DNA of 64,000 nt from Pseudobacteriovorax antillogorgiicola (GCA_945862295.1 CAMAXT010000004.1:1-64000); one strand, 5' to 3'; shown: positions 10,544 through 46,800, counted from the first letter of the stretch. The notes: a model not told the origin generated them from the sequence alone. Translations and numbers: made by a program.

Positions 10544-11092
10544 ATGGGGCGACATTCACGCGAAATTCTTCCTGGTGGCTATTTCCACTGCATCAATCGC
10601 GGTGTGGGCCGCCGTGAAATTTTTCACGAACAACGGGACTATGAAACTTTTGTTCATTTAATGCGAAGAAGTCAAAAGAAGTACCCGGTCAATATATCTG
10701 CATACAGCATCATGCCCAATCATTGGCATATTGTTTTATCCGCCGAATCTGGAAAACATCTGGCTCGTTTTTTTTCGTCGCTGCTCAACTCACACACCAG
10801 ATGGTATCACGCAAAATATAAATCAATAGGTCACGGCCCGATCTATCAAGGTAGATACAAGTCAATCCCTTTACCAGAAGAGGCTGTGCACTCTGTTTGT
10901 CGTTATGTCGAACGCAATCCGATCGCTGCCCATCTAGTAGCCGACGCAGGTGACTGGCCTTGGAGTAGCCATGGTTTTTGGACTGGAAAACTGAATACCT
11001 ACGGCCCCGTCTTAAGTCGCCCCTTTGTCGAGGATGCTACGCAGTGGGCAAAAGTAGTTGGATCTGATCCAATCAACATTTATAACAATTAG
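10544..11092 (+). CDS. REP-associated tyrosine transposase (RAYT, Y1_Tnp family)
   Basis: 182 aa. The HUH motif is visible in MPNHWHIVL (around residue 65), and the catalytic tyrosine is probably in VCRYVERNP (around 125). The N-terminal GGYFHCINRGVGRREIF is typical of the family. These single-strand nucleases bind and mobilise REP palindromes. Here the gene is flanked upstream by two direct copies and downstream by two inverted copies of the GGTGTCAGTCACC core, as expected. It appears intact. Its 3' end is repeated in diverged form immediately downstream. Confidence 0.92.
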   Translation: MGRHSREILPGGYFHCINRGVGRREIFHEQRDYETFVHLMRRSQKKYPVNISAYSIMPNHWHIVLSAESGKHLARFFSSLLNSHTRWYHAKYKSIGHGPIYQGRYKSIPLPEEAVHSVCRYVERNPIAAHLVADAGDWPWSSHGFWTGKLNTYGPVLSRPFVEDATQWAKVVGSDPINIYNN

Positions 11093-11113
11093 TTACGGAT
11101 GGTGACTGACACC
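11092..11113 (-). repeat. REP-like element, inverted copy 1
   Basis: GTTACGGATGGTGACTGACA.. is the reverse complement of the upstream REP core with one difference. It overlaps the last base of the RAYT stop codon. Confidence 0.85.
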
Positions 11114-11130
11114 TACACCACACCTACACC

Positions 11131-11244
11131 CATAGTTTTTGGACTGGAAAACTGAATACCTACGGCCCCGTCTTGAGTCGCCCCTTCATCGAGGATGCGA
11201 TGCAGTGGGCAAAAGTAGCTGTAGCTGATCCACTTAACGCATAG
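11131..11244 (+). pseudogene. Duplicated 3' end of the RAYT gene
   Basis: Aligns to the last ~40 codons of the RAYT gene (from about 10971). It stays in frame to its own stop: HSFWTGKLNTYGPVLSRPF..., ending DPLNA. Differences from the intact copy include several synonymous changes (TTA/TTG, TTT/TTC, GCT/GCG) as well as replacements near the end. This looks like the tail of a diverged homologue, not a recent slip duplication. There is no start codon or upstream part. Confidence 0.85.
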
Positions 11245-11265
11245 TTACGGACGGTGACTGACACC
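11244..11265 (-). repeat. REP-like element, inverted copy 2
   Basis: GTTACGGACGGTGACTGACA.. follows the duplicated RAYT tail exactly as the first inverted copy follows the gene, so gene tail plus REP was duplicated as a unit. It is the exact reverse complement of the upstream cores. Confidence 0.85.
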
Positions 11266-11273
11266 TATACCGC

Positions 11274-11669
11274 CTATACCGGAAAATGATGTAAACCGGA
11301 TTCTCGCGGCTTCGTCGCTTCCGTCAGCCACTTCTTGAGCAAAACAGTAAAGCCGCTGGGTCCGTGCGATTCAAGAATTTGCTCCAACTCGCCCTTATCA
11401 AGAAAAAGTCCTGAGCATGATCCGCAAACATCGGCTTTCACACCGTAGTGATCACTTTCTTTTAGTTGAGCTCCACACTTCGGGCACATCATCCAATGAC
11501 TTTTTACCCGCTCCAGGGATTCCATTTGTCGGCGCTGCTCGTCCAACCGACGACGGTTGCACTCGATGAGTTCGCTATTTAAATGGAAGAAGTACTCCTC
11601 TTCAACATCGTAGCCCGCTTTCTTAAGGGACTCGTTGACGGGTTTAGTGACGTTTTTATCTGAATGCAT
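11274..11669 (-). CDS. Zinc-ribbon (TFIIB-type zf) protein
   Basis: 131 aa. The central MCPKCGAQL...ADVCGSCSGLFLDKGELEQIL is the TFIIB-like zinc-finger family motif (two CxxC pairs, then GxxLDxGEL). N-terminal residues are charged and helix-prone. The start at 11669 (MHSDKN) is chosen over the ORF-track start 36 bases upstream because AGGAGGAGG lies 7 bases before it. Function is unknown; family members may bind nucleic acid or protein. The stop lies 8 bases from a REP-like element. Confidence 0.75.
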   Translation of the reverse strand: MHSDKNVTKPVNESLKKAGYDVEEEYFFHLNSELIECNRRRLDEQRRQMESLERVKSHWMMCPKCGAQLKESDHYGVKADVCGSCSGLFLDKGELEQILESHGPSGFTVLLKKWLTEATKPRESGLHHFPV

Positions 11670-11916
11670 ATTTGTTCCTCCTCCTAAACCTAATGCAACC
11701 GACATGCCACGATAAAGATTAGAAAAAAAGGGATCTGGGCGTGATTTCCCACCTACTTAACACGAGCACTAGCTGGGGCTACCACAGTGGGTGATGATTT
11801 GACCCATTTAAAAAACCAGGTGATTCTAATGAATTTTTCATAGTTTCACGATTTTCTTGCCGTTTTTATTAAAATTTGTTATCAGGATGCCCTGACTTTG
11901 AACAATCCGAGACCGT

Positions 11917-14580
11917 ATGCAAGAGCCATTCGACTCAATCTCTAGCAATCCTGTTCCAGCGTTAGATCCCCACGCTGTCGTACCGGAAATCCTTGCGCCT
12001 GCAGGCGGACGACAACAGTTTTTCGCGGCACTGAACTCAGGTGCAGACGCTGTCTTTTTAGGACTAGAAAGTTTCAACGCTCGAGCTCGCGCAACCAATT
12101 TCACAGCTGGAGACCTTAAAGAACTCGTACCAGTCGCCCATGCATTCGGCATGAAGGTTCTGGTCACAGTTAACATTCTAATTAAACAGTTAGAACTGCC
12201 GGAACTCTTTCGCACACTTGATGCAATCGAAGCTTCCGGCGCTGACGCTATCATTGTGCAAGACCTCGCCGTAGCTCGTATCGCCAAGAGATATTTCCCA
12301 GCTATCAGACTGCATGCCTCGACACAGATGGCCGTGCATAACGTCACAGGTGTTTTAGAAGCTGCAAAATACGGCTTTAAGCGCGTAGTTTTAGCTCGCG
12401 AATTAACACATCAAGAAGTACGAAGGATCCGCGCTGCTGTCTCAAGGGATGTAATAGAGCTTGAAGCATTCTGTCATGGCAGTCTTTGTTACAGTTACAG
12501 CGGCCTTTGCTTTTTCAGCGGTGCAGAAGATGCACGCAGCGGTAACCGCGGCGAATGCGCCTACACCTGCCGCCAGCCTTACAAAATCCTCAATGAGCCA
12601 GGCCACGGCTTTCTCTTCAGCATGAAAGATCTAGATACCTCAAAGAGTTTAGATCTTTTAATCAAAGCCGGGATTGATACCTTAAAGATCGAAGGGCGGA
12701 AAAAAGATGCCCAATACGTTGCGACGTCTGTAAAGCTTTACCGTCAGAATCTAAACCGCCTATTCGGCAGAGACACTCTAAGACCATCAGCACCGGCTTC
12801 AGCCTTCGAATTTATCCACGACAATAAGCCTGTGGAAACTGACCTTGAGTTCGCGTTTAAGCGCCAACCTACTTCGTTTTTTCTCAAAAGTAGGTACCAG
12901 GAAAACGTTATCGACCTTGATAACCCGACCCATAAAGGCTTGGAAGTCGGGACTATTCTTTCTGTAAACAATAACCAAATTACTTTCCGCACCCAGCACG
13001 CGATTGAGTTATATGACGGCCTTCGGATTGTTGACACCGGCAAGGTCTTTCATTCGAAACCACAGGACGGCATCAACGTCCGTACCGAACTGACGCAATC
13101 AATCGATCGCTACGAAAATAAGCACAGCGAATTTTCAGTTCGCAGTATCTATGTTGGCAGCCGTTCAAAGGTGAATGCAAAAAACGGCGACGTGGTCACC
13201 GTTGGATTGCCAGATAACATCAAAGCACCGAGTCCCGGCTCACAGATATTTAAAGTCCGCTCAGCCGAGCTAAAAGCCCGTGTAGAAAAAATCTCCCAGT
13301 TGCCAGCTGACATGCGCTTAACCACCCACGACCGCATTCATCTTAAGCTCAATCTCAGATCAAAAGACGATTCGGCTATTGAAATCACGGCTGTTTGCTC
13401 AAGTGGTTCATTCGATTTTGAGTTAGGTCCTTTCGCGATCAGCGCCGAAAGACCTAGAAATCAGTCCAAGTTTGGCCCAGAGCTAAATGCAATTCTTTCT
13501 GTTTTTGGCGAAGCTGAACTTACCTGTGAAAGCATAAATGTCAGCGGCGACACCAATTGGTTCGTACCTAAATCTCTACTTAAAAAATTCAAGGCGACTC
13601 TAGGCAAAGAAATAAAAGGCACTATAAATCAGCTTCGTTCAGAACGGATCGAACTCGGCGATCAGGCATTTCTAGGTCAACTTGGCGAAGACGACGAGAT
13701 CTATCCGGATGCAGGCGTCGTCGAATCCTTTACTGTTAAAACCGATCGGGCTGAAACTGCGGTCGCGGCTCTAGAAGAAAACTACCAAGCAGCATGCCTT
13801 AAAGAACTGGTGTTTGAGCCCAAAAGAGCATTCATGGGTGATACCAGTGCCGACTCAATCATCGATGATCTCTTTAGCCGCTGCCAAAAGGCTGGCGTCA
13901 TTCTTCGTATTGCGATCCCAACAGTCGTGCGCGCTTGGGACGAACCTCTCTTAAGTAAATGGGTGCGCTACGCGTTTGAAAAAGGCGTAAAACACTTCGA
14001 AGTTGGTAACATCGGCGGACCAGAGCTCGTTTATAAATGGACTGGTAGCCAAGACGTCGATCTGTCGGGCGACTTTACACTTTACGCTCTAAATTCCGAA
14101 GCACACGCTGCCATTAGTGAACTCGGGGTAAAATCAGCAACGCTTTCCGTAGAAGATGATTTAGAAAATATCGCCGCCCAGGTTGAAACCCTCTCGCCTG
14201 CAGCAGTCGCTGAGACTGCAGTGATCCTCTATAAAGATACGCCGCTATTTATTGCGGAAGCCTGCTCACTTACAGCCCTACATAACGGCTGCCCAAGTGC
14301 CGCCGTTTGTGGATACCGGACACTCGAAATCGAAAACAAAGAGGGTGAGCGGTTCTATGTTGCTCATGAATCTTGTAAGTCGGTGGTTTACGGCAAACGA
14401 GCGTTCGGCGTTACCCACCTGAAAGAGCATTTAAAAAATCTGGGTTTTAGAAACTTCCGTTTGGATTTTTTAACCCGTCCTTACACCAAAACCGAACTCT
14501 CTGCCGTCATTAATGCTGCCCTTTGCGGTAAGACGATAGAGCAAACCCACAGCGCAAACTTTACCCGCACCTTGTTATAG
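11917..14580 (+). CDS. U32 family protein, RlhA/YdcP-like (23S rRNA hydroxylation type)
   Basis: 887 aa, longer than E. coli RlhA (about 650-670). Residues 25-300 form the U32 TIM-barrel domain: PEILAPAGGRQQFFAAL, GADAVFLG, then the cysteine-rich block FCHGSLCYSYSGLCFFS...RGECAYTCRQPY, whose cysteines are Fe-S ligands in this family. KIEGRKKDAQYV follows. The middle resembles the collagenase-like accessory domain, and the C-terminal ~250 residues have a further cysteine set (CSLTALHNGCPSAAVC...CKSVVYG). RlhA supports 5-hydroxycytidine formation in 23S rRNA; the substrate here is inferred. The next gene begins 13 bases after the stop, so the pair is probably an operon. Confidence 0.8.
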   Translation: MQEPFDSISSNPVPALDPHAVVPEILAPAGGRQQFFAALNSGADAVFLGLESFNARARATNFTAGDLKELVPVAHAFGMKVLVTVNILIKQLELPELFRTLDAIEASGADAIIVQDLAVARIAKRYFPAIRLHASTQMAVHNVTGVLEAAKYGFKRVVLARELTHQEVRRIRAAVSRDVIELEAFCHGSLCYSYSGLCFFSGAEDARSGNRGECAYTCRQPYKILNEPGHGFLFSMKDLDTSKSLDLLIKAGIDTLKIEGRKKDAQYVATSVKLYRQNLNRLFGRDTLRPSAPASAFEFIHDNKPVETDLEFAFKRQPTSFFLKSRYQENVIDLDNPTHKGLEVGTILSVNNNQITFRTQHAIELYDGLRIVDTGKVFHSKPQDGINVRTELTQSIDRYENKHSEFSVRSIYVGSRSKVNAKNGDVVTVGLPDNIKAPSPGSQIFKVRSAELKARVEKISQLPADMRLTTHDRIHLKLNLRSKDDSAIEITAVCSSGSFDFELGPFAISAERPRNQSKFGPELNAILSVFGEAELTCESINVSGDTNWFVPKSLLKKFKATLGKEIKGTINQLRSERIELGDQAFLGQLGEDDEIYPDAGVVESFTVKTDRAETAVAALEENYQAACLKELVFEPKRAFMGDTSADSIIDDLFSRCQKAGVILRIAIPTVVRAWDEPLLSKWVRYAFEKGVKHFEVGNIGGPELVYKWTGSQDVDLSGDFTLYALNSEAHAAISELGVKSATLSVEDDLENIAAQVETLSPAAVAETAVILYKDTPLFIAEACSLTALHNGCPSAAVCGYRTLEIENKEGERFYVAHESCKSVVYGKRAFGVTHLKEHLKNLGFRNFRLDFLTRPYTKTELSAVINAALCGKTIEQTHSANFTRTLL

Positions 14581-14593
14581 ACTTGTTGTAACC

Positions 14594-16648
14594 ATGAACA
14601 TTCAACAGTTTGCAGAACAAATCCTCAAGTCCGCGACCCTTGCTGACAAACTCTACTTTCCGGAAGCAGGGCTCAGCTCATTTACTGATATCAAAACCCT
14701 GACAGCAAGTATCCCCGACCTGCCTGGACGCCCTCATGCTCTAGCGATGCGTAGCAATGACGACAAAAAAACAGCCTTCCCTACCGCTGCCGAGCTAAAA
14801 TCGCAGACCGCCCGTGGGATTGTTCTACACTTTTTTGCGAATCATGAATTACTTGCCATGGAACTAATGGCACTCGCACTTCTAAAATTTCCGGATGCTG
14901 ACAGCAAGTTTCGAATGGGAATTGTTCATACAATTCAAGAAGAGCAAAATCACATGCGTCTTTATCAAAAAAGAATGCATGACTACGGTGTCGAGTTTGG
15001 CGCCGTCCCCGTAAGCGGCTACTTCTGGGATTCTATCAGCAATATGCAAAGCCCCATGGACTATGTCACCCGCATGAGCATGACGTTCGAGCAGGCTAAC
15101 TTGGATTTTTCACTGTTCTACAAAAGTCTGTTCGCTGAAATTGGCGATAACGAGACGGCGCAGATTCTTGATCAAGTCTATCGGGAAGAAATCGGTCATC
15201 TTAAATACGGTGTGACCTGGTTCAATCGATGGAAAGATCCTAGCCTCGATGATTGGCAAGCATTCAATAAAAATCTTCCGTTTCCCATGACACCTAGCCG
15301 AGCGAAGGGCATTGGCTTTGACCGACAAGGACGAAAGACCGCGGGATTAAGTGATAAGTTTATCGACGAGCTCTACATCTATCAGTGCTCCAAGGGTAGG
15401 CCACCAGTTGTTTACTTCTTCAATCCCGCATCGGAGATGGAGGCTCTATTTCCAGAACATAACTTTACCGTGCCCTCTGCCGTGCAAGATGTGGCGCATG
15501 ATCTAGCAAGTCTTATGATGTTTTTGACGCAAGGCGACGATGTTGTCGTTACCAAAGAAAGACCTAGCACTGAATTTTTAACGCTCTACCGTGATGCCGG
15601 CTTTCTATTGCCTCAGTTTGCTGACTGGCCTGAGCTTACGAAGAGAACGATCACCCGCTTTGAACCCTGGGGTCAAACAAAATACAGTCAAAAATTGATC
15701 GAGTCTTTCAAGGGTCGCATTATCGAAAACCAACTCACCGTAGCACCAGAACAAATCTATTCCAAACGGTGGGCTGTGGAGACCTTTGGAAGCAGCGGGG
15801 AATTTCCATCAAAGATTGTCACTGAAACAAAAGCAGCTGTAGACGAAACTGCTGCATTCCTAGCTGAAAACGACAGCCCTCTTGTTATCAAAGCTCCCTA
15901 CGGGTCATCAGGTCGTAATATGATCAGAGCTATGCGTCCAGGACTCGAACCAAGACAAATCACTTGGATTGAATCCACTTTAAAGTCGCAAAAGGCATTG
16001 ATCTGCGAACCATGGGTTGAAAAGGTCACCGACTTGTCGGTTCAGCTGCAGGTCTCTGCTAATGGACCAAGGATTCTTGGCATCACCAACTTTCTCACAG
16101 ATAAACGTGGTCAATACATCGGTCATTTCTTAGGAAAGAAATTTCATCATCTTTCGCAAGATTTCCACCGGGAGTTCCATCGGCAGGAATTTCAAAAACA
16201 GTTGGAACTCAAAGCTGAAGAGATCGGTCTGCGGCTCTTCACTGAGGGATACCGCGGTGCTGCGGGCGTCGATGCATTTGTCTACAAAAACGGTGAAGCT
16301 ATGCGTCTACGCAGCTTTGTTGAAGTGAACCCGAGATTCACTATGGGCAGGATCGCATTAGAGCTAGAGAAGATGATTCCTTACAAGACCAAGGCCATTT
16401 GGTTGCATTTAAGTAAGAACACGATCAAGCATTTTGATTGGCAAAATTTTTCGGAGTGCGCTAACGACCTAAATCACCGTTTCCCTTATAAATTTGGAAA
16501 AGCTACGCCAAAGGATCACAGGCCACAGATGAGTGACGGGGTTCTCTTTACCAACGACCCATCCCAGGCAAAATCCTTGGTTTCAGTATTATTTGTCGGT
16601 GAAGCTTGCGACTTCGCACAAAAAGAACTGACGCCTAATTTAATTTAA
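14594..16648 (+). CDS. Ferritin-like DUF455 protein fused to an ATP-grasp-like domain
   Basis: 684 aa. Residues about 60-250 resemble the DUF455 ferritin-like family: helical, with ExxH-type metal motifs EEQNH (near 116) and EEIGH (near 198) plus further glutamates (HELLAMELMA, FEQANLDF). Residues about 370-640 look like an ATP-grasp fold, with PLVIKAPYGSSGRNMIRAM (nucleotide-binding loop), CEPWVEKVTDLSVQL and FVEVNPRFTMGRIA (acidic/Asn metal-binding end). The fusion suggests an oxidase or hydroxylase step coupled to an ATP-dependent ligation, but no substrate can be named. It lies 13 bases behind the U32 gene. Confidence 0.7.
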   Translation: MNIQQFAEQILKSATLADKLYFPEAGLSSFTDIKTLTASIPDLPGRPHALAMRSNDDKKTAFPTAAELKSQTARGIVLHFFANHELLAMELMALALLKFPDADSKFRMGIVHTIQEEQNHMRLYQKRMHDYGVEFGAVPVSGYFWDSISNMQSPMDYVTRMSMTFEQANLDFSLFYKSLFAEIGDNETAQILDQVYREEIGHLKYGVTWFNRWKDPSLDDWQAFNKNLPFPMTPSRAKGIGFDRQGRKTAGLSDKFIDELYIYQCSKGRPPVVYFFNPASEMEALFPEHNFTVPSAVQDVAHDLASLMMFLTQGDDVVVTKERPSTEFLTLYRDAGFLLPQFADWPELTKRTITRFEPWGQTKYSQKLIESFKGRIIENQLTVAPEQIYSKRWAVETFGSSGEFPSKIVTETKAAVDETAAFLAENDSPLVIKAPYGSSGRNMIRAMRPGLEPRQITWIESTLKSQKALICEPWVEKVTDLSVQLQVSANGPRILGITNFLTDKRGQYIGHFLGKKFHHLSQDFHREFHRQEFQKQLELKAEEIGLRLFTEGYRGAAGVDAFVYKNGEAMRLRSFVEVNPRFTMGRIALELEKMIPYKTKAIWLHLSKNTIKHFDWQNFSECANDLNHRFPYKFGKATPKDHRPQMSDGVLFTNDPSQAKSLVSVLFVGEACDFAQKELTPNLI

Positions 16649-16689
16649 GCGCCAGGTCCTGTTTTTAAATTATCTGTGACCTTAGTGGA

Positions 16690-17349: not shown

Positions 17350-17350
17350 A

Positions 17351-18877
17351 TTATTTAACTCCTGCAGGCGACTGCGCTGCTGCTGTTTCATCTGCTTTTG
17401 ATGCGAACCAGATATCCGCCATGCGACCAACCGAGCCGTCAGTAAATTCAAACGAACTCACTAGGCGCACTTCATTCATCTCAACCATAAAGAATTTGTC
17501 TTGGTTTCCCGACTTAGTGTAAGCCAAACTTAACGATTTGAGACCGGCCGTGCTTAGGTCTTTAAGTTCATTCTTCTCAGACACACCGTTGCGATTAATG
17601 TCAACCCAAAGGCGCAGCTTGCCAAAAATCTCGTCTTTGCTATCGATGCGACCGTCTTGATTTTGATCGTATTGAGCAAGCGCTTGGTAGCCGTTTTGGA
17701 AGTTAGTAAAGTGATTATTCTTGGCGTCCGTTAATGCGTGAGAGTTCTCACCAAAAAGTTCGCTACCAGAATCAATCGCGCCGTTCTGATTCACATCAAG
17801 AACTAAAAGTGCGTCGCTTGTGGTCCAGCCAGTTCTGACTTTCTTGCCATCAGCATTGATGTCAAAGCGAACCGGGGTTTTTTCCTGCCATACGTTGCTT
17901 AGATCGAATTTTTCGTTTTTATTGATATCAAGGACAAGAGGTGAGTTGTAGTCGGCATAGCCACGAGCATTACTTCCGCAAACTGAAGCTTGCAGTGGGT
18001 GAGCGAAACTCAAACCGCCAGCAACGTTTTCACCTTGAAGACCCATGCCGTTCATGTAGCCCGCTTGGTTATCGATTTCGATTTGCGCATTTGCACTAAC
18101 ACTGAAATTAACAGTACGATCATACCAGAATGCTGGGCGCGCCTGATCGCCACCACGATTTACTTTTTGACAAGTTAGGGAGTCACCTGCACCGCCAGCT
18201 CCAACGAGACAGATCGAGAGCGTGCCCTGTTGCTGTCCGCTTAACTGACCGGACTCAACTTGCGGTGAGACATAGGTCAAACTAACGTTCATTTTCACAA
18301 CCGGGTAAGCCATGCTCGCAAGGCTTTCGCCTTTGCATGCAGCATAGACAGTCATCGGTCCAGCAGCGACTACGGCACCAGCAGATGATTTTAGAATCGC
18401 CCAGCTACCTGGCTCAGTTGCATGCGCGCGGTGTTCCATATTAACGAATGGAACTGCTTTGAATCTTAGATTGCCAAGATCCTTGCCAATTGTTGGCGGT
18501 ACAACCGCTGGTGGTGTCTGCGGAACGATCGGTGGTTGCGGCTGAACAACAACTGGGTCTGGTGTCGGTGTTACAACCGGATCGGGCTTAGCCGGAGGCG
18601 GTGTCGTTGTAATAACAACATCATTGTTAGTTTCTGGTTTAACTTCAGGTTTTTCTTCAGGCTTCTGAGTTGGTTTTTCAGCTTCTTCGCCTTCTTTTTC
18701 CTCACAGAGAGATTCACCCTCTTTGGCTGGTTTCTTACCTGGTTTCTTTTCCTCGGTTTGAGTTTTCTTTTCTACTCTCTGACTTCCACCGGAGAAACCC
18801 CCAGAGTTACAGGAAGCGGTCAAAAGTAGAGAACTCGCGGCGCCAGATATCAGCAATAAGCGGACAAGCGTTACCAT
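17351..18877 (-). CDS. Large lipoprotein with EF-hand/dockerin-like calcium-binding repeats
   Basis: 508 aa. The signal peptide ends in lipobox TASC. Residues about 30-135 are a Lys/Glu- then Pro/Val-rich low-complexity linker, likely spanning the periplasm or cell surface. The C-terminal half holds several DxNxDG-type loops: LDINKNEKFDL, FDINADGKKV, LDVNQNGAIDSGSELFG, YDQNQDGRIDSKDEIFG and VDINRNGVSEKNEL. These are typical calcium-binding loops of surface proteins. The role is unknown, perhaps an adhesin or surface scaffold. It is first in a two-gene lipoprotein operon. Confidence 0.75.
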   Translation of the reverse strand: MVTLVRLLLISGAASSLLLTASCNSGGFSGGSQRVEKKTQTEEKKPGKKPAKEGESLCEEKEGEEAEKPTQKPEEKPEVKPETNNDVVITTTPPPAKPDPVVTPTPDPVVVQPQPPIVPQTPPAVVPPTIGKDLGNLRFKAVPFVNMEHRAHATEPGSWAILKSSAGAVVAAGPMTVYAACKGESLASMAYPVVKMNVSLTYVSPQVESGQLSGQQQGTLSICLVGAGGAGDSLTCQKVNRGGDQARPAFWYDRTVNFSVSANAQIEIDNQAGYMNGMGLQGENVAGGLSFAHPLQASVCGSNARGYADYNSPLVLDINKNEKFDLSNVWQEKTPVRFDINADGKKVRTGWTTSDALLVLDVNQNGAIDSGSELFGENSHALTDAKNNHFTNFQNGYQALAQYDQNQDGRIDSKDEIFGKLRLWVDINRNGVSEKNELKDLSTAGLKSLSLAYTKSGNQDKFFMVEMNEVRLVSSFEFTDGSVGRMADIWFASKADETAAAQSPAGVK

Positions 18878-25022: not shown

Positions 25023-26303
25023 ATGGGAAATCCTCGTAAAAACTTGAAGAAATTACCAGCAGTCGCTGTGATCTGTATTGCTTTCATGCAAGCAAATGCA
25101 TCGTATGCTGACGCGTTGCAGTCTATGGCCAACCAGCGCAGTAGCCTACCAGGAAGTCGAGCTGCGTTGATGGGTGGCGCGTTTACAGCTGTCGCTGACG
25201 ACTCATCCGCAAGCTTTTACAATCCAGCAGGTCTATCCCACATAAAAGAAAATCGTTTAGAACTTTCTGCAACATCATATCGCGCTTCAGAACTCGTCTA
25301 TCACGAAACCGTAAACGAAGATCCTTTTCAAGAACGAAGCGAAATGATTTATCCAAGCTTCGTTGGTGGTACAAGCAAGTTTGGTTGGCTGACACTTGGC
25401 TACTCATTCATGTCGCTCGACGCACGCAATATCTATCAGCAGGATAATTTTCAGAACATCTCGACAGTCGCCGGCGTAACCAATAGCTACAGCCGCACCT
25501 ACCAAGAGTCTTCGACATATATCTGGGCGGGTGGCAGCGCGTCTATCCGACTAAACGATAGCCTGTCGTTTGGCTCATCATTTTTCTACTACCAGCGAAA
25601 TATAAAATTTACAGCGAACGAAATCATCAGCTTAAACGGCGGCGGCATCGTCAACATCAACGATACACTAAACACCGTCAATACGGGTGCTAGCAATGTT
25701 TCGGGTGTGCTTTGGAAAAAGCCTTTATTCGCTCTTGGTTTGTCCGTTAAAACGGCAAGGGCCACGAGTGACAAGTCGACTCTACACATCGACCGTATTG
25801 AATTTTCTGAGGGCGACACCACGCCCAATCACACGTCCACGACCATTTCACATAAGGCTCTCAACGAACTCAATCCTACGACCTACAACGCCGGCATTGC
25901 TTTTAAACCAACGTCTTGGTTTCTTCTGTCGGCAGATGCGCACTTGCACGAAGGCGTCAAAAGTACTTACAAACTAGACGGCGGCCAGGACCTGCATACA
26001 ACTCTTGACTACAGCATAGGGACTGCGATCGGTGGAGAAACACTCACAGTTATGGCGGGCTATTTTACAAACAATTCGATGTTCAAAAGTCCCGATCCAA
26101 GTTTTTCTGGCCAGCCACTTTGGGTCAACTACATTGGCAAATCTTTTGGACTCAGTTGGAACTTCAGTGGCCTTCGTGGCCAGGTCGGCTATGTCTTGCA
26201 AACAGGATCTGGCAAAGCTCAGATTCGGTCAGGTGATCCTGATATTCAGAACGTCGATGGCACAGTCGAAACAGTCGTTGTCGGCGGCACCGTTCCACTC
26301 TGA
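25023..26303 (+). CDS. FadL/OmpP1/TodX family outer-membrane transporter
   Basis: 426 aa. A signal peptide (residues 1-30, ending ASYA) is followed by the family hallmark GSRAALMGGAFTAVADDSSASFYNPAGL, the N-terminal hatch. Beta-strand-rich sequence continues to the C-terminus. FadL proteins take up long-chain fatty acids or other hydrophobic compounds across the outer membrane. The C-terminus lacks the usual terminal Phe/Trp and ends ...VVVGGTVPL. The last ~95 bases are repeated 590 bases downstream. Confidence 0.88.
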   Translation: MGNPRKNLKKLPAVAVICIAFMQANASYADALQSMANQRSSLPGSRAALMGGAFTAVADDSSASFYNPAGLSHIKENRLELSATSYRASELVYHETVNEDPFQERSEMIYPSFVGGTSKFGWLTLGYSFMSLDARNIYQQDNFQNISTVAGVTNSYSRTYQESSTYIWAGGSASIRLNDSLSFGSSFFYYQRNIKFTANEIISLNGGGIVNINDTLNTVNTGASNVSGVLWKKPLFALGLSVKTARATSDKSTLHIDRIEFSEGDTTPNHTSTTISHKALNELNPTTYNAGIAFKPTSWFLLSADAHLHEGVKSTYKLDGGQDLHTTLDYSIGTAIGGETLTVMAGYFTNNSMFKSPDPSFSGQPLWVNYIGKSFGLSWNFSGLRGQVGYVLQTGSGKAQIRSGDPDIQNVDGTVETVVVGGTVPL

Positions 26304-26431
26304 TTTTAGAATCCATTGTAAGTAAGCATATTCTAAAGGTAACAAAGGATAGATCCCATATATCATCCGTATGCTTTAGCGCCATCTTTCCACGAGTTAA
26401 ACAGGAAAATTAAGCCTACGAATTTCTCCAA

Positions 26432-26713
26432 CTAAGTAGGGGGGCATTCAATGAGATTGTATTTTACCTCGATTTCCAGGCTTTCAATGGTAACTTTGTG
26501 GCTATGGCTGACATATGCGGGTAGCGCTGACGAGACCCGAATCGCGGCAGATAACTTTCTCAAACCGAGCATATAGAGCAGTGATTTTATTTTGCCGATT
26601 TTTCCGGACTTGACCTCAATCGGAATGATTTGCGTTGATTTCTGGATGACGAAATCGACTTCGGCATTGCCTTTTTTTCCTTCGCGCAGCCAGTAGTGGC
26701 GTTGAGGTCTCAA
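26432..26713 (-). pseudogene. C-terminal fragment of an AAA_14/DUF4143 ATPase
   Basis: 93 codons. YWLREGKKGNAEVDFVIQ...IIPIEVKSGKIGKIKSL is the nuclease-like C-terminal DUF4143 block (D...ExK) found at the end of AAA_14 ATPases. The ATPase half is missing and the frame opens only at a TTG. It lies inside the segment bracketed by the two copies of the FadL-gene 3' end. A full-length family member is at 45099-46265. Confidence 0.8.
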
Positions 26714-26805
26714 GGGGGATTCATCTGGGTTCAGCAGCTATAATTACATGCAAGTGATAGTGACATTCGAAATATTTGCGCTGCCGACATTGCCACTGAC
26801 AACGT

Positions 26806-26901
26806 CAGATTCGGTCAGGTGATCCGGATAACCAGAACGTCGATGGCACAGTCGAAACCGTCGTTGTTGGCGGCACCGTTCCACTCTGATTTTAGAATCC
26901 A
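26806..26901 (+). pseudogene. Duplicated 3' end of the FadL gene
   Basis: Aligns with 26220-26315 (last ~28 codons plus 12 bases after the stop). The reading frame is conserved to TGA (IRSGDPDNQNVDGTVETVVV...). Differences are CCT/CCG, ACA/ACC and GTC/GTT (synonymous) and one replacement (ATT/AAC). There is no start or upstream part. The enclosed 26316-26805 segment holds the DUF4143 fragment and nothing else recognisable. Confidence 0.85.
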
Positions 26902-36156: not shown

Positions 36157-36159
36157 AAC

Positions 36160-39455: not shown

Positions 39456-40394
39456 ATGTTCATCGATTTCGAAAAATGGCATGGCACGAAAAACGATTTT
39501 GTAATCGTCCGTCTCTCATCTGCCGATAGCGAGACAGTGCTAAGTAGCATCAAGCGCCTCGCCAAAGGAATCTGCGACCGGCACACTGGTATTGGTGCAG
39601 ACGGCATTCTCGTTCTTCATTCAGAACAACGCGGCGAACTCACACCGCACGGCTTGACGATCATCAACAGCGATGGATCCCTGGCGAAGAACTGCGGCAA
39701 CGGGCTTAGGTGCGCTGCCTTGAGCATTCTGCGAGCGCACCTTGAAAAAGGCGATCCGAACGACATTCCTGAGGCTGTAGAACTCACGGTCGAAGGTGTC
39801 GCACTTACCTGCCGCTATCTCAACAATGAAACTTTAAATTCGCTTGTCGCTGTCGAAATGCCCGATGCTAAGGTTGGAAAACACGTCCCTTGGGGCGCGA
39901 GTGTCATTCTTGCTACGAAAAAACATCTAAAGTCCATTGGACTCAAACCCACACAGTACGAAATAGAAGTCAGCGATCTTGGCAATCCGCACGTAGTCAT
40001 CACAACCGATGATGCCAGTCGCGACCTCATGCTTAAGATCGGTCCGCCACTGCAAAAGCTCTCAGGTTTAGACGGTATCAATGTCCATGTGATCAAAGCA
40101 GCGACTCTCAGCGACAAAGACCGTTCACTCGCAAAGAGCCAACTCGGTCACGCGGTATCAGAACTCTTCACTATGTATGTTTGGGAACGCGGTGCTGGAG
40201 AAACAATGGCTTGCGGAACAGGTGCTTGTGCCGTCGGGCTGACTGCGCTCGCTTCAGGTCTTGTGGACCGCAGCGACTGGATTGCAGTCGATATGCCCGG
40301 GGGAAGAGTTTACGTGAACCAAAAGTCGGAAGCTGATGCTGTGACTTTGGCAGGACCGGCCAAGTTTGTTTTTTCTGGCAAACTTGAAATCTAA
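39456..40394 (+). CDS. dapF: Diaminopimelate epimerase
   Basis: 312 aa, slightly longer than usual. It converts LL- to meso-diaminopimelate for lysine and peptidoglycan. Both catalytic cysteines are present: NCGNGLRCAAL and MACGTGACAVGL. The N-terminal KWHGTKNDFVIV matches the family. The last ~300 bases and the following ~40 bases occur again, decayed, at 46439-46799, beyond a 6-kb accessory segment. The copy attached here is intact, so the gene should be functional. Confidence 0.95.
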   Translation: MFIDFEKWHGTKNDFVIVRLSSADSETVLSSIKRLAKGICDRHTGIGADGILVLHSEQRGELTPHGLTIINSDGSLAKNCGNGLRCAALSILRAHLEKGDPNDIPEAVELTVEGVALTCRYLNNETLNSLVAVEMPDAKVGKHVPWGASVILATKKHLKSIGLKPTQYEIEVSDLGNPHVVITTDDASRDLMLKIGPPLQKLSGLDGINVHVIKAATLSDKDRSLAKSQLGHAVSELFTMYVWERGAGETMACGTGACAVGLTALASGLVDRSDWIAVDMPGGRVYVNQKSEADAVTLAGPAKFVFSGKLEI

Positions 40395-40443
40395 ATTAGT
40401 TTGAGCAACGTTTTGCCGTAACAACAGTCTTTCGCTCTTCGGT

Positions 40444-40680
40444 ATGAAGGGCAATGAGTTGCTCGTGGATTTAGATTACAAAGAAGATAGCTCAGCAGAT
40501 CTTGATATGAATGTGGTTATGACTCAGAGTGGGAAGATCTTGGAAACCCAGGGTACGGCTGAGAAAGCTGCGTTTTCAAAAAGTGACGTTATGCGCATTA
40601 TGGACGCTGCGGAAGAAGATTTGATGCCTGTGTTTGATCTTCAGCATTCAGCGGCAGATGGTCATATTGTTGAGTCGTGA
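40444..40680 (+). pseudogene. rph: 3' fragment of ribonuclease PH
   Basis: 78 codons. LLVDLDYKEDSSADLDMNVVMT...ETQGTAEKAAFS is the conserved C-terminal region of RNase PH, a 3'-5' phosphorolytic tRNA-processing enzyme. The first ~160 residues are missing. It starts directly at the end of the dapF-homologous segment, so it is probably the first piece of transferred DNA in the island. Confidence 0.85.
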
Positions 40681-40744
40681 GATTTGGTAGATGGCTATAG
40701 TTTGGAGAATATGGGGATAGACCCATATGCTCGACGGCAACTCA

Positions 40745-41143
40745 TTATTGATTGGTCGACCAAGAATTCGTTTCGGGGTCGAAAACACCTACATCAATTG
40801 GGTATTCCTCCTCGAACTGCTTACCTGTTGACCCCCCAAAAACAAGCATTTTAGTTCCAGTCCAGACCGTGCGCTAATCACTTCGCATTTCCGGAGCATT
40901 TTCCAAAGACATATCGCTCCACAAACGAAGAGCTATATCATATATATTTCCATTCCCTGGTAGAGAGTTCCCAGTATCATCATTCGCTTGCTCCCGCCAA
41001 TATATGAGTTTTCCTCCAGCCAAAACCGCGGGACTGTAACGAATATTTGGCGCGGCAAGATCTTGCCAGATATTAGTTAGTGGATCGTAGGCATATCCAA
41101 GTCTAAACCCGGATGTTGATAAGACCCGAATTAAATAAACCAC
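40745..41143 (-). pseudogene. Broken kelch-repeat protein gene
   Basis: The frame encodes two kelch units, YDPLTNIWQDL...RYSPAVLAGGKLIYW and WTGTKMLVFGGSTG...VFDPETNSWS. They are separated by an in-frame TAG after PEMRSD, where kelch proteins usually read RS.HTAVW. There is no start or signal peptide. The ORF track shows only the part before the TAG. Kelch beta-propellers are often surface or periplasmic proteins. Confidence 0.7.
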
Positions 41144-41366
41144 GTCCTGATTAATCCTTTAAAGTATTTCCCGCAGCTACCGAATATGCTTTTGGTACTT
41201 CTTAAATATTTTAACTAACCGTCCTTATTAAGAGGAAGTCATGCTGGTACGAGTAATCCGCAGGACGAGCCAACTTAGTCAGTGTATTCAGGGCTTATCG
41301 CGGGCTTCATGGCGTTCGCGCACTGAAAATGTTCCAGGCAGTTATACCTATTTTCGGAGGTTTTCT

Positions 41367-43712
41367 TTGCGTCTTGGCAAACAAATATTGCCCCTGGCCC
41401 TTTACTCCGTCCTGACGATCTCGTGCTCCAGCGGATTTCTGCCGGTCGGAGTTGGCGGTGCCACCGAAACCAAGACCGTTGAACCAGACGAAAGTGGAAG
41501 CGACAAGGAAGGGGGCGGGGAGACGGTCGAGACAGTCGAGACAGTCGAGCCGGTCTCCATGCCTACAGCCGATATCGTCGCTGGAAGCTACAGCTTAGCG
41601 CAGACAGTCACACTGAGTTCGGCGACAGAAGGAGCCGTCGTATACTACACGACCGGCAACGGCTCGCAGGCCGCCCCCACATGCGCCAGCACTACCGGCA
41701 CGATTTCAATCATGGCGACCACCACCGTCAAAGCCATCGCGTGCAAAACGGGCTACACCGATTCCGCGGTCGCGACATTTGCCTACATCATCAACGGCGC
41801 GGCAGCGACCCCCACAGCTGATATCGCGGCCGGAGGCTACGGCCCAGCGCAAACAGTCACACTGAATTCGGCGACAAGCGGCGCCGTCGTCCATTACAAC
41901 ACTGGGGACGGCTCTCAGGCGGACCCTACCTGCGCCAGCTCTACCGGCTCGGTGTCGGTCACGGCGACCACCACCGTCAAAGCTATTGCGTGCGAAAAGA
42001 GCCACCTCAATTCGGCGGTCGCGACAATTGCCTACATCATCAACGGTCCCACCGCGGCTCCGACAGATGTTGTCGCGGCATCAACCTGCGGCGCAGTGGA
42101 CACAGTGACATTGAGTTCGGCCACCGACGGCGCGGTCGTGCATTACACCTCGGGTGACGGTACTCAGGCCGCCCCCACCTGCGCCAGTTCCACTGGCACT
42201 CTTTCACTCACCGCTACCACAACCGTCAAAGCCATCTCCTGCAAAACAGACTACTCCGATTCCGCAGTCGCGACATTCTCCTACACCGTCGATGTGCAGG
42301 ACGGCTTATTCTGCGGCGGCGCAGGATCGACCGAAGTCCCCTACAAAATCTGTAGTCTTGCTACCTTGGCGAATGTGGCCAACCACCTTGATGCTTCATT
42401 CATCGTGACCAGGGACATTGACGCCTCGACGATGGCGAGTGGCCTCGGATGGGCACCCATCGGCTCAAACGCAACGCCTTTCACGGGCGCGCTCGACGGC
42501 CAGGATCACAGGATCTGCGGCCTGACGATCAATCGGCCGACAACGGACTATATCGGGCTTTTTGGGGCCGCGTCCGCGACGTCCGTGCTGCAGGACCTCA
42601 GCCTTCAGGATGTGGCCATCGTGGGCCAGAATTACACGGGGGGCCTTGTGGGAAAAGACCTCGGGGAGATTCATAATGTTTCCGTTAAAGGCAGTGTGCA
42701 GGGAACGTCCAACGTCGGCGGCATGGTCGGCTATCTCACGGGCGCCGTGGCGTCCATTGTCGACAGCAACGCCAATACCATCGCAGTATCGGGCACCGCG
42801 TATCTGGGAGGCCTGGCTGGCCAGTCCGATGGCAGCGCGAGCATTACCAGGTCATGGAGTTCGGGAACGGTCACGGGCGACCCCGTCGTGGGCTGGAAAG
42901 TTGGGGGGCTTGTCGGGCGGCTCAGCAAAGGCACGATCTCACATTCCTACTCCTCCGCGAACGTCAGCGCGAATAATCAGGTCGGGGGGCTCGTTGGCAT
43001 GTTTTACCAATGGGGCGCCGGCCTCTGCACGATCGAGTATTCTCATGCGTCCGGAAGCGTCACGGCTGTTAGTGCAGCGATCGGGGCGACCGATGGTTTT
43101 GGAGTGGGTGCGGGCGGACTTGCGGGCGTTGGGGGCGATTGCCTCCTGATTCAGAAAAGCTACGCGACGGGCAATGTGACCAGCGAGCACACAGGAACCG
43201 AAGACAAGGTCGGCGGATTAGTCGGGGCGGCTTATTGGAAGACACAAACCATCGATGACAGTTACGCCACCGGCAACGTCAGTAGCGCCGGGGGGCAAGC
43301 TGGCGGAATTCTGGGGTACTCCAACGGATTCAATATCAACCGTTCCTACGCAACTGGAGGCGTCACCGCCCCCATGGCCGCCAATGCGGGCGGACTGGTC
43401 GCCAGCGGCTCTGCCGCTCTGTACAACAGCTTTGCCACGGGAGTGGTCTCCGGCACGGCCACAACCATTCATGGAGGGCTCGTCGGCGTAAAATCGTCCA
43501 CGCTCACCAACTCATACTGGCTCAAGCCCGACGGCAGTCCGTTTACGTGCGTCGGGAATAGTGTGGGCGACACCGGATGCACCGAGGAATCCGTCATAAG
43601 CTTCTTCTCCACGCACGACGGAGCTTTGTTCTCGACGTGGAATTTTACCGCCGGTACCGGCGTCTGGGAATGGCCTGCTGAGTCCGGGGCGCTGCCGCGG
43701 CTGCGGGAGTGA
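41367..43712 (+). CDS. Surface lipoprotein with three chitobiase-C-type repeats and GLUG repeats
   Basis: 781 aa from TTG 41367, chosen because GGAGG lies 6 bases upstream and a lipoprotein signal (MRLGKQILPLALYSVLTISC) begins there; the listed ORF adds 42 unrelated residues. Three ~80-aa repeats (each xPTADI..., VTLSSAT.GAVVHY, TTTVKAIACK, ATF.YIING) resemble the chitobiase/hexosaminidase C-terminal domain. They are followed by about ten GLUG motifs (GGLVG...), a repeat of surface adhesins. The gene is clearly richer in G+C than its neighbours, indicating recent transfer. It lies in the dapF island; a surface-binding role is inferred. Confidence 0.8.
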   Translation: MRLGKQILPLALYSVLTISCSSGFLPVGVGGATETKTVEPDESGSDKEGGGETVETVETVEPVSMPTADIVAGSYSLAQTVTLSSATEGAVVYYTTGNGSQAAPTCASTTGTISIMATTTVKAIACKTGYTDSAVATFAYIINGAAATPTADIAAGGYGPAQTVTLNSATSGAVVHYNTGDGSQADPTCASSTGSVSVTATTTVKAIACEKSHLNSAVATIAYIINGPTAAPTDVVAASTCGAVDTVTLSSATDGAVVHYTSGDGTQAAPTCASSTGTLSLTATTTVKAISCKTDYSDSAVATFSYTVDVQDGLFCGGAGSTEVPYKICSLATLANVANHLDASFIVTRDIDASTMASGLGWAPIGSNATPFTGALDGQDHRICGLTINRPTTDYIGLFGAASATSVLQDLSLQDVAIVGQNYTGGLVGKDLGEIHNVSVKGSVQGTSNVGGMVGYLTGAVASIVDSNANTIAVSGTAYLGGLAGQSDGSASITRSWSSGTVTGDPVVGWKVGGLVGRLSKGTISHSYSSANVSANNQVGGLVGMFYQWGAGLCTIEYSHASGSVTAVSAAIGATDGFGVGAGGLAGVGGDCLLIQKSYATGNVTSEHTGTEDKVGGLVGAAYWKTQTIDDSYATGNVSSAGGQAGGILGYSNGFNINRSYATGGVTAPMAANAGGLVASGSAALYNSFATGVVSGTATTIHGGLVGVKSSTLTNSYWLKPDGSPFTCVGNSVGDTGCTEESVISFFSTHDGALFSTWNFTAGTGVWEWPAESGALPRLRE
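41555..42300 (+). repeat. Three ~245-bp in-frame tandem repeats
   Basis: Units begin near 41555, 41801 and 42046, each encoding one chitobiase-C-like domain. DNA similarity is strong in blocks such as ACCACCGTCAAAGC. Such repeats can change number by recombination. Confidence 0.8.
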
Positions 43713-44112
43713 CCGAGCGAAGATCAAAATGAGAAAATCGGAGTGACTTTCAGCGATGGAAGTCCTGTGCTGGCGCAAAATGCCAACCACCATCACTAGG
43801 ACTGAATTTGTTAACGAATCTGTACGTTCCGCCGATTGGCTGGGGAGGATGTCCCAGCCGGCTTCCGGTCTGGCAGATTAATTCATAAATGCCCCAATAT
43901 TCCAGCGCGCTGTCCGTCTTTGAACGTAAGCGCACCATTTAGACCGTTCTTGACGCTGCAATAGTTGCCTGATCCTGTGTTCAGTAATCTCCAATGGAAT
44001 TTTTCAAATTAATATGCAGTTCACCGCAGAAATCTGCGGTGCAGATTTCTGCAGCTTTAGTGTTTTTTAAACAGAGGTTGAATACTGCTGCATTAAGGAA
44101 AACACTATAAAA
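43713..44112 (+). other. Gene-free stretch after the GLUG lipoprotein
   Basis: No supported gene. A 62-codon minus-strand frame (43750-43938) has no recognisable family and no good start. The GC content falls back towards the genome level across the stretch. At 44024-44052 there is a compound palindrome (listed separately). Confidence 0.5.
44024..44052. repeat. Compound palindrome
   Basis: GCAGAAATCTGC (44026-44037) is followed, after GGT, by its exact reverse complement GCAGATTTCTGC (44041-44052). The first arm also forms its own hairpin (CCGCAGA-AA-TCTGCGG). It lies 60 bases from the IS4 remnant and may be a trace of a mobile element end. Confidence 0.55.
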
Positions 44113-44682
44113 TCAGTATAAAACACGTCCGTCCTTAGTAGGGATTTTTGATTTTTCTCGTTCAATTCCTTCCGTCATTGCAGTCGAAAACTCTATATCT
44201 TCAAGCAATGAGATAAGCTGTAGTGCCTTCCAACGGTTCCTCGTCATACATAGAGTTGGAAAGACTGACTGAGCGGCATTGGTTTTTTTAGCTCTCGGCT
44301 CGAATCTGTGTGGCTGCTTTTTTAACCTAAAAGCGCTTAACAGCGCGATAAAAGGTTTTGTTATTCCGTTGCCTGCAACATTCGCATTTCTTCCGTTATT
44401 TTTTATATAGAATTGCAGAATGCCTTTAAAACTCAGGTTCCTTGGTGAGACGCCTGAATTTTGCGCCACCTTACCCATCAATCTTCGCGTCAGATTGAAA
44501 GCTAGTAAATTTATCCATGCCTCTTTCTCGATCATTTCCGGACTTTTGCATGCCAGGAAATTGAGATTAAGTTCCAGCTGAGGTTCGCAGATATTTGAAA
44601 CACTGTAACATTGAATATGATCCACCACCCCGAGGTCCGCCCAAGCAGGTTCAGGACTCATTTGAGTTCGACCAAGCCCCAT
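44113..44682 (-). pseudogene. IS4-family transposase remnant
   Basis: The segment LACKSPEMIEKEAWINLLAFNLTRRLMGKVA...GVSPRNLSFKGILQF is the C-terminal region of IS4-type DDE transposases, after the catalytic glutamate. The upstream catalytic core is missing, and the sequence before LELNLNF does not match the family. No clear terminal inverted repeats were seen. Confidence 0.75.
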
Positions 44683-45098
44683 TGCTGGATGATTATGAAG
44701 CTGTGATTTATAACGACTGATCTTTCGGTTCGGGAAACTGCGCGCAAAATCAACTCAATCAACTGAAATCGCATAATCTAAAAAGATCCCCAGCAGAAAT
44801 ATGGCCCGCTTCATCCAAAGATGATCGACAACTGATTGTAAAATGGGCACAGAGGGGGTGTTGATAGTTGGGGAAAAGGCTTTGATTCACCTACTATTCG
44901 ATCTGCTCAGACGGCGAGAGCATCATCTTTCCATTGAAAGAAAATTCACTCATTGAGGAAACCAGACAAGCGGAACGCTTTTCTTTCTCAGCCGACGAAC
45001 GCGTTATCACAGAAATTTTAAATCCGTTTGATAACGAAACTCACCTACTATTCAGCATGTTCGGAGCACCATGTCCTTTTGTGCCAACTTCGAAGCTG
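44683..45098 (+). other. Gene-free stretch between the IS4 remnant and the ATPase
   Basis: No gene is supported. A 13-bp direct repeat, TCACCTACTATTC, occurs at 44887 and 45041. CGTTATCA (45002-45009) pairs with TGATAACG (45029-45036), a perfect 8-bp stem that could be a weak terminator or element end. A short open stretch between them is unassigned. Confidence 0.45.
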
Positions 45099-46265
45099 CT
45101 ATAAATCAATAATTTCTCTGATCCCCTTCCTCCAATGTTGACTTTTGATACCGTCAAAATTTTTTTCTGTTTCATCATTAGAGATAATGATTCGCAAAGG
45201 ATCTTTGAAATCAGTTTCAAAATGTTTTAAGTGACGCCCATCATGACTATCGATCTGATTTTTTGATTTAATCTCCACCAGCACAGTCGGCCTACCGGGA
45301 CGATCGACAATCAAATCAATTTCTACGCCGTCCTTGGTTAATAAGTAGCTATATCTAAAATCCTTGCGAGCGTAAGATGCCTGCCGCATGATTTCAACAA
45401 TGACAAAATGCTCAAACGCTTCTCCGTAAGCTGCGGTTTGCGGTTTAAGCGGAACATCGAGAGTTCGATCTAGAGCGCGCTTAACTCCCAAATCAAAAAG
45501 AAAAAACTTAGGAGCCTGCCTCTGTTGTTTGCGTAGTGACCGACTAAATCCCGGTAATCTAATGCCAATCAATGTGTCTTCCAAAATCTCAAAGTAGGAT
45601 TGCACCGTATTGGGATCGACGCCGATATCTTTTGCGATACTCGTATAATTGAGAATCTTTCCGTTCATTTGCCCTGCAACTTCCAAAAATCTTCTGAACG
45701 GCGGCAAATTTTTTACCCATTGTTCTGCCTGAATTTCGGTAGTGATATAGTTAAGTGCATATGCGCGTAGGAACGCGTGTTGGACCTCCACAGACTCAGA
45801 AGTGCGGACCTCCGGTAGGGACCCCGTCTCTAGTACGGCTTGTAGATCAAACGCAGATGCAAGTTCAATATGAGTTAGCGGAAACATATACTCGTTCAAC
45901 GCTCGACCCGCTAAGAGATTAACTCCCTTTTGTTTAAGTCGGCGAGCACTTGATCCACTCAAAATAAATTTGAGCTGGTGTTCCACAATTAGCATCTGTA
46001 CGACGTCCAATAACTTTGGGCATTTTTGCACTTCGTCGATCACTATCCACTCAAGGGACGCATGGTGAGGAATAATTTCCCTTGCGAGTAAATCCGGGTT
46101 TTTCGCATATTTGTCTTCAGCCGCAGGGCTAAGTAGGTCGACAAAAAGGGAGGCTTTACCCCGCAAAAAATTACGAATGAAGGTGCTCTTCCCGACTCCA
46201 CGAGCCCCGAACAAGAAAAAACTCTTAGATTCTAATGGCTTAATTGTCCTGATGAACTCGGTCAT
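45099..46265 (-). CDS. AAA_14/DUF4143 family ATP-binding protein
   Basis: 388 aa, full length. Walker A FFLFGARGVGKSTF (residue ~20), Walker B WIVIDEVQK (~75) and sensor FILSGSSARRLK are followed by a winged-helix-like segment (YTSIAKDIGVDPNTVQSYFEIL). The C-terminal DUF4143 nuclease-like block is DGVEIDLIVDRPGRPTVLVEIKS. These proteins are widespread accessory genes of unclear function, often in many copies. It is the only apparently intact enzyme gene in the dapF island. A fragment of a relative lies behind the FadL gene. Confidence 0.9.
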   Translation of the reverse strand: MTEFIRTIKPLESKSFFLFGARGVGKSTFIRNFLRGKASLFVDLLSPAAEDKYAKNPDLLAREIIPHHASLEWIVIDEVQKCPKLLDVVQMLIVEHQLKFILSGSSARRLKQKGVNLLAGRALNEYMFPLTHIELASAFDLQAVLETGSLPEVRTSESVEVQHAFLRAYALNYITTEIQAEQWVKNLPPFRRFLEVAGQMNGKILNYTSIAKDIGVDPNTVQSYFEILEDTLIGIRLPGFSRSLRKQQRQAPKFFLFDLGVKRALDRTLDVPLKPQTAAYGEAFEHFVIVEIMRQASYARKDFRYSYLLTKDGVEIDLIVDRPGRPTVLVEIKSKNQIDSHDGRHLKHFETDFKDPLRIIISNDETEKNFDGIKSQHWRKGIREIIDL

Positions 46266-46438
46266 GATTTACCCGATAAATAATGAGCCATGTCATAGTT
46301 TACATCAAAGCTCACAATCCTCCAATAGTTCGAAAATTTTAGACGCAAGGTGGCCCTCTTGCTCGTCCGACATCGCAAAAAAAAGCGCAAAGGACGAAAC
46401 GAAAGTCCTCCGAAATTAAATGACGGAGATGACTCTAG

Positions 46439-46737
46439 AAAGCAGCGACCCTCAGCGACAAAGACCGTTCACTCGCAAAGAGCCAACTCGGTCATGCTGT
46501 ATCAGAACTCTTCACGATGTTTGTTTGGGAACGCGGCGCTGGAGTAACCATGGCTTGGGAACCGGTGCTTGTGCCGTCGGGTTGACTGCGCTCGCTTCAG
46601 GTCTTGTGGACCGCAGCGACTAGATCGCAGTCGCTATGCCCGGGGGAAGAGTTTACGTGAACCAAAAGTCAGAAGCAGATGCTGTAACTTTGGCAGGACC
46701 GGCCAAGTTTGTTTTTTCTGGCAAACTTGAAATCTAA
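46439..46737 (+). pseudogene. Decayed second copy of the dapF 3' end
   Basis: Aligns to 40095-40394 over ~300 bases, and homology continues past the stop to about 46799. Many differences are synonymous (for example GCG/GCT, ACA/ACC, TCG/TCA, GTG/GTA). The copy is dead: a C is missing in the TGCGGA catalytic-cysteine codon region (frameshift), TGG became TAG, and GAA became GTA. It marks the right edge of the island. The sequence beyond it runs into the next chromosomal gene. Confidence 0.93.
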
Positions 46738-46800
46738 ATTAGTTCAGACTTAGGTCAAAAGAACAACGTTTTGCTGTAACAACTGTCTTCCGCTCTAGCG

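Follow-up and report, generated by a model that had tools for sequence, protein, structure and literature searches.

Second copies of gene 3′ ends around accessory DNA in a Pseudobacteriovorax antillogorgiicola genome, and their possible origin by one-sided gene import

Why should an intact gene be followed, on the far side of unrelated DNA, by a second copy of little more than its own 3′ end? The question is raised by a 64,000-nucleotide stretch of a Pseudobacteriovorax antillogorgiicola genome (GCA_945862295.1, CAMAXT010000004.1:1-64000, our contig C4:1-64000; the whole stretch is hereafter called the window), in which three genes, namely dapF, a FadL-type gene, and a RAYT gene, each possess such a second tail. 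The genome amounts to 3.05 Mb in 157 contigs, is estimated to be 77.7% complete, and has metagenome-assembled genomes of the Oligoflexales as its nearest named relatives. From our comparisons within the window, over a large sample of the genome, and with related genomes, we favor, with a probability of roughly 0.6, the explanation that the tail duplications which enclose other genes (cargo) are scars of xenologous insertion, each produced by one homologous crossover together with one illegitimate join.

Three repeated gene ends in the window

When the window was compared with itself using blastn, the dapF pair (90% identity, E 2e-137), the RAYT pair (84% identity, E 5e-42), and the FadL pair (92.5% identity, E 1e-37) were the strongest direct repeats outside one repeat-rich gene, and a chance origin of the three is excluded. 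Each pair consists of an intact gene and a 5′-truncated second copy of its last part with some of the 3′ flank. The features concerned are as follows.

10544-11092, + strand: RAYT (Y1 transposase; Pfam Y1_Tnp), holding tail copy 1 (10969-11119, including the REP-like 3′ flank; REP, repetitive extragenic palindromic)
11130-11271, + strand: RAYT tail copy 2 with REP-like flank, near-tandem, without cargo
25023-26303, + strand: FadL/UPF0164-type outer membrane protein gene, holding tail copy 1 (26209-26315)
26432-26713, - strand: C-terminus of a DUF4143 ATPase, a 5′-truncated remnant between the FadL tails (Pfam, 28.2 bits, barely above the gathering score; also found by a family search of the genome)
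26796-26901, + strand: FadL tail copy 2
39456-40394, + strand: dapF, intact, holding tail copy 1 (40095-40438; open reading frame and self-blastn)
40439-46438, no strand: 6.0 kb insert between the dapF tails, absent at the same junction in six same-family genomes
41241-43712, + strand: dapF cargo, large secreted or lipoprotein-like protein with CHB_HEX/Fn3-assoc repeats and GLUG motifs (Pfam)
45099-46265, - strand: dapF cargo, AAA_14 + DUF4143 ATPase, with the Walker A and PD-(D/E)XK-like EIDLIV...VEIK motifs intact (Pfam, motif)
46439-46796, + strand: dapF tail copy 2, a 5′-truncated pseudogene with a -1 frameshift and a TAG (alignment)
47447-48169, + strand: acyltransferase, the ancestral downstream neighbor of dapF, which adjoins dapF in six same-family genomes

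The DNA between the two copies measures 6.0 kb at dapF, 0.5 kb at FadL, and about 10 bp at RAYT. A reading of the window from sequence alone had proposed that these three genes have a second 3′ end, that the second copies lack a 5′ end and keep the region of the stop codon, and that accessory DNA lies between the copies in two of the three cases, and our analysis recovered all of this. Its statement that the copies keep the reading frame fails at dapF, where the second copy carries a 1-nt deletion (TGCGGAAC -> TGGGAAC) and a TGG to TAG change. Its further proposal, that the differences between copies are mostly synonymous, is true of dapF (12 synonymous and 4 nonsynonymous differences; 1/4/11 at codon positions 1/2/3), weakly true of FadL (4 and 3; 0/2/5), and untrue of RAYT (3 and 10; 5/4/4, plus a 9-nt deletion).

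Tail pairs across the genome and two empty sites

Including the window, we analyzed a total of 1,197,248 bases of the genome (39%), a sample that was chosen to take in all DUF4143 loci and is thus enriched in them, with genes called by a simple longest open reading frame (ORF) rule. Direct repeats less than 20 kb apart were collected, from which same-ORF repeats, paralogues, and a tRNA-Ser pair were removed (the repeats on contig C1 being paralogous tRNA genes), and the list of tail-type pairs was curated by hand. It contains 11 pairs in 1.197 Mb, eight of which lie outside the window: dapF, FadL, aspS (C17), an aminotransferase (C104), the HRDC end of a recQ-like gene (C118), a DNA methylase (C15), RAYT, a lipoprotein (C2), a 402-aa secreted protein (C2), an M14 peptidase (C7), and a 3′ flank (C23). 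The names aspS, aminotransferase, recQ-like, and DNA methylase come from our reading of the translations, and aspS is also backed by homologues. Other DNA is enclosed in 10 of the 11 pairs, with inserts of 0.5-8.5 kb; the repeats are about 40-500 bp long with no common size, and their borders fall between about -495 and +31, counted from the stop codon. Two of the inserts deserve separate mention. On C23 (16756-18012), a two-gene unit without Pfam match, possibly toxin-antitoxin-like, lies between copies of the neighbor's 3′ flank, and in the methylase insert (locus L033) a coiled-coil ORF occurs twice (11295-11827 and 17997-18508), around the ATPase and a SEC-C/SNF2 helicase; the latter insert may be layered.

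The bias toward gene ends was measured by testing the end, the start, and the middle of each of 956 ORFs for free matches. Such matches were found in 14 genes at the 3′ end, in none at the 5′ end, and in one at mid-gene, which is the aminotransferase again. Convergent neighbors, registered from the opposite side, and a tandem repeat of a 3′ flank on C28 are counted among the 14; the recQ-like ORF, being shorter than the length limit, escapes the scan. Within the window itself, the only head-side candidate lies on the + strand just ahead of prfB, where a permease-like gene is flanked by a 137-bp noncoding repeat (1253-1389 and 2333-2467, 73%). The control, 400 kb of a sister genus with 329 ORFs, yielded no tail match and one head match; the stretches of genome G009 and the DUF4143 stretches of some other families were excluded from this head and tail count owing to too many local repeats. 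The excess of 11 pairs among 956 ORFs over 0 of 329 is suggestive only (Fisher p = 0.08), and we therefore refrain from singling out the lineage.

Two of the sites are found empty in relatives. Six same-family genomes share the gene order sensor kinase, response regulator, dapF, acyltransferase, with the last two adjoining, whereas here the gap between dapF and the acyltransferase is filled by the 6.0 kb cargo together with the second tail and a small gene (dapF homologues were found in 35 of the 38 genomes searched). Similarly, aspS and topA are convergent direct neighbors in 6/6 same-family genomes, and here the two aspS tails are separated by 2.3 kb with a DUF4143 gene. Because both junctions are closed in these six relatives, the cargo at dapF and at aspS was inserted. 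The native neighbor is kept beyond the second tail in either case, the acyltransferase at dapF and topA at aspS. The aspS pair (64 bp, one mismatch, sharp ends) stops inside a terminator-like hairpin past the stop codon, the right arm and T run of which stay with the second tail and topA; the second aspS tail is therefore in its native downstream setting. A 5′-truncated aspS fragment with an in-frame TAG was also noticed in the sister genus (G005:C190:483-971), away from the intact aspS of that genome, to which it has 76% DNA identity.

The differences between tails are of the kind expected of functional alleles. In five pairs pooled (dapF, FadL, the methylase, the 402-aa gene on C2, and M14), the counts by codon position are 6/8/41, such that 41 of 55 differences fall at third positions, which departs from 1:1:1 (p = 5e-10) and also from a stricter null that lets one copy evolve neutrally while the other stays under constraint (p = 2e-4). 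The pool leaves out RAYT and recQ, the differences of which are unbiased; with all seven measurable pairs, the stricter null gives p = 0.02. Since the third-position bias of the five pairs exceeds both nulls, their tails seem to have diverged mostly while both were functional, i.e., in different genomes, and the second tail in these pairs is probably not an in-place duplicate that later decayed. Duplication in place, in which a staggered or repaired break in the gene end takes up the cargo and doubles the target, with later drift of the second copy, would fit the aspS pair with its single mismatch in 64 bp, the RAYT pair, which is near-tandem with unbiased differences, and the decay of dapF copy 2. 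As a general explanation it appears improbable, given that the third-position differences exceed a mix of neutral and constrained change and that the repeats have no common size. The lipoprotein pair on C2 has 79 identical coding bases with all 10 differences in the 55 bases past the stop codon, a pattern that would be predicted from a crossover switch near the stop, and it is the only pair that looks like a switch.

The RAYT pair is probably a separate local event, distinct from the cargo-bearing pairs. Its element (10544-11271) resembles RAYT/REP elements in being a Y1-transposase gene with REP-like flanks, and unlike the other pairs its tail duplication has neither cargo nor synonymous bias. 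The gene at 10544-11092 is the sole full RAYT copy found in the genome, and no second one turned up to account for the extra tail. Two copies of a 23-bp REP-like element precede RAYT (10359-10441), and another lies inverted in the second tail (11244-11266). A search of the window against Rfam gave nothing at the gathering threshold.

DUF4143 ATPases within the inserts

Ten DUF4143 matches were found in the genome, six of which sit between two tail copies (dapF, FadL, aspS, the aminotransferase, the HRDC end of the recQ-like gene, and the DNA methylase), and the enclosed gene or remnant is on the strand opposite to the target gene in 6/6 cases. The other four loci comprise one at a contig end (C8) and three without a flanking tail repeat (C63, C56, and C37). 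Judged by the length of DNA enclosed, six of ten matches inside pairs is far above expectation (P = 6e-8), and so it is within the DUF4143-bearing stretches only (P = 4e-4). DUF4143 genes also tend to face the 3′ end of their neighbor (20/31 against 615/1798 background genes, 34%; p = 0.0009). A motif scan caught seven full-length copies in the genome, in which both Walker A and D...ExK are preserved. The ATPase of the dapF insert is 72% identical to a protein from another family of the order and about 50% or less identical to proteins of its own family, from which we conclude that it moves horizontally. The domain is expanded in the order, with 63, 57, and 48 matches per genome in G004, G029, and G007, respectively.

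These observations raise the possibility that mobility is driven by the DUF4143 AAA_14 protein, which joins an ATPase to a PD-(D/E)XK-like domain. In a homing-like manner, it would cut a gene close to its 3′ end and be copied in along with a cut-resistant version of that tail that had diverged beforehand. Its frequency inside tail pairs, its orientation opposite to the target and toward 3′ ends, the intact motifs, the high number of matches per genome, and the crossing of family borders are all in its favor. Conversely, four insert-bearing tail pairs have no DUF4143 gene, the order of the cargo varies, other genes are present inside, no common target motif is seen, and loci of the sister genus rarely show a clean flanking repeat. 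As for the signs of a homing element, the putative nuclease motif, D...ExK, is present in the DUF4143 copies, but occupation of the same site across genomes is not, since dapF and aspS are empty in six relatives and the targets differ from copy to copy. We therefore consider such a role unlikely, and slightly less likely still the stronger proposition that DUF4143/AAA_14 ATPase-nuclease genes are autonomous selfish elements aimed at gene 3′ ends, carrying a diverged target tail and dispensing with integrase, transposase, and inverted repeats.

Among 20 stretches with DUF4143 loci of the sister genus, few had a clean flanking repeat, the clearest one being upstream of a gene, and no tail repeat was found within 1.5 kb of the closest relatives of the ATPase in G014, G021, and G007. 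Our literature search on DUF4143/PF13635 found nothing relevant. Two further arrangements around DUF4143 genes were noticed. In the sister genus, a 121-bp repeat (98%) at the start of a kinase-like gene (G004:C39, 6994-7113 and 10658-10778) flanks a DUF4143 ATPase and other cargo, thus forming a head-side counterpart, and in G024:C14 (6619-12753) a noncoding repeat of 90-130 bp recurs five times and parts accessory genes (a toxin-antitoxin-like pair, another accessory gene, a DUF4143 ATPase, and a further ORF) in what resembles a cassette array.

Proposed one-sided import and its precedents

The ends of the inserts bear directly on how they arrived. No shared end motif, target motif, common core, or terminal inverted repeats were found among the ten inserts, and the cargo proteins tested gave no Pfam match to a recombinase domain or a transposase domain. 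The signs of transposons are likewise absent, as there are no terminal inverted repeats and the repeat lengths vary from 46 to 344 bp where a fixed short target duplication would be expected. Tyrosine-recombinase islands leave tail 1, cargo, and a displaced tail 2, with synonymous differences between the tails. Integrase-type islands that insert at the 3′ ends of protein genes, restoring the gene end by an alternative tail and leaving the old tail beyond the cargo, would hence produce the same architecture; however, here we have no recombinase domain in the tested cargo, ten unrelated sites and many target genes without a core, small cargo, and borders that wander from about -495 to +31. This explanation is disfavored and seems very unlikely. 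The lack of shared ends, the absence of a recombinase domain, and the variable borders fit one crossover in the gene end and one illegitimate joint.

We propose that a fragment from a related bacterium would bring the 3′ part of a shared gene with adjoining accessory genes. A single homologous crossover would occur inside the 3′ part of the recipient gene, and the other end of the fragment would be joined illegitimately, either because the fragment was trimmed, recircularized, and integrated by a single crossover, or because its non-homologous end became linked to the recipient gene itself, at a point upstream of the crossover. The outcome would be a whole gene with one tail, then the cargo, and then a 5′-truncated second tail that decays, with DUF4143 ATPases as frequent passengers. 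The relative as donor, the illegitimate nature of the join, and the circle or one-sided step are inferences. The 3′ bias may have arisen as insertion there spares the gene and its promoter, and as DUF4143 genes tend to face 3′ ends. A ComEC-type competence protein is present in the genome, and Ku was not found in it.

There is a laboratory precedent for such an event. Under one-sided selection in E. coli, 56 of 60 recombinants duplicated the homologous end (109-950 bp in the 14 sequenced), an outcome that was put down to a shortened circular molecule integrating through a single crossover (PMC3240628). Like the origin proposed here, that event combines one homologous crossover with one illegitimate joint. 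As in that single-crossover insertion-duplication, described in E. coli conjugation in 2011, the homologous gene end is here repeated around the insert with the first copy in the intact gene; there, it was a selected plasmid event, whereas here it is natural and recurrent, with diverged alleles and chromosomal accessory cargo. Homology-facilitated illegitimate recombination (HFIR) shares the single homologous anchor, the non-homologous end, and the gain of about 1 kb or more of foreign DNA, but in its classical one-sided form a similar length of recipient DNA is usually deleted (PMC3240628). Here the recipient tail and neighbors are kept, with no loss of recipient DNA at dapF and aspS, where the gene order is intact on both sides. 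A related displacement model has been proposed for the type VI secretion system (T6SS) arrays of Vibrio (PMC5361080). In T6SS effector-immunity displacement in Vibrio cholerae (PMC5361080), and in the C-terminal displacement of Rhs and contact-dependent inhibition (CDI) systems, the module is similarly anchored in the upstream gene and the old 3′ module is kept as a downstream orphan; those cases concern effectors with variable ends, whereas ours are mostly ordinary genes with a nearly unchanged tail and unrelated cargo. On this comparison, the tail scars are most likely a little-noticed natural counterpart of the laboratory recombination event.

Several points weigh against one-sided import. 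Laboratory bacteria undergo one-sided events very rarely (PMC3240628), and the 3′ bias does not follow from one-sided recombination alone. The RAYT and recQ pairs show no synonymous bias, and the aspS pair has zero coding differences, so that in-place target duplication fits it equally. No donor sequence was found, and donor and recipient tails are therefore indistinguishable. DUF4143 genes occur in 6/11 pairs, above the expectation for a neutral passenger. Finally, the assembly is fragmented and incomplete, which would allow for an artefact of mixed strains or amplification chimeras; nevertheless, the window is free of Ns, the junctions of cargo and tail 2 have no long shared word to mislead an assembler, dapF tail 2 is pseudogenized, the loci are many and independent, and a 5′-truncated aspS fragment is also present in the relative G005, all of which makes an artefact scarcely credible.

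The sequence-only reading had supposed a repeated one-sided process with DNA from relatives. The eight further pairs, the clear 3′ enrichment without any free 5′-end match in the 39% of the genome scanned, the third-position divergence, the six relatives with empty sites, and the foreign cargo support it, except that RAYT does not appear to belong to the same process; the suggestion that the lineage is peculiar in this respect found no support. That reading had missed the recurrence of a DUF4143 ATPase as cargo, with the remnant in the FadL pair among the instances. If one-sided import is indeed the origin of the cargo-bearing pairs, the scars would record where it took place, how large the cargo was, and, through the divergence of the tails, how distant the donor was. 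They would also explain 5′-truncated gene ends downstream of intact genes, and they would mean that accessory genes can spread in uncultured bacteria without integrases or transposons. They would, moreover, offer a lead on how the abundant and almost unstudied DUF4143 ATPases move.

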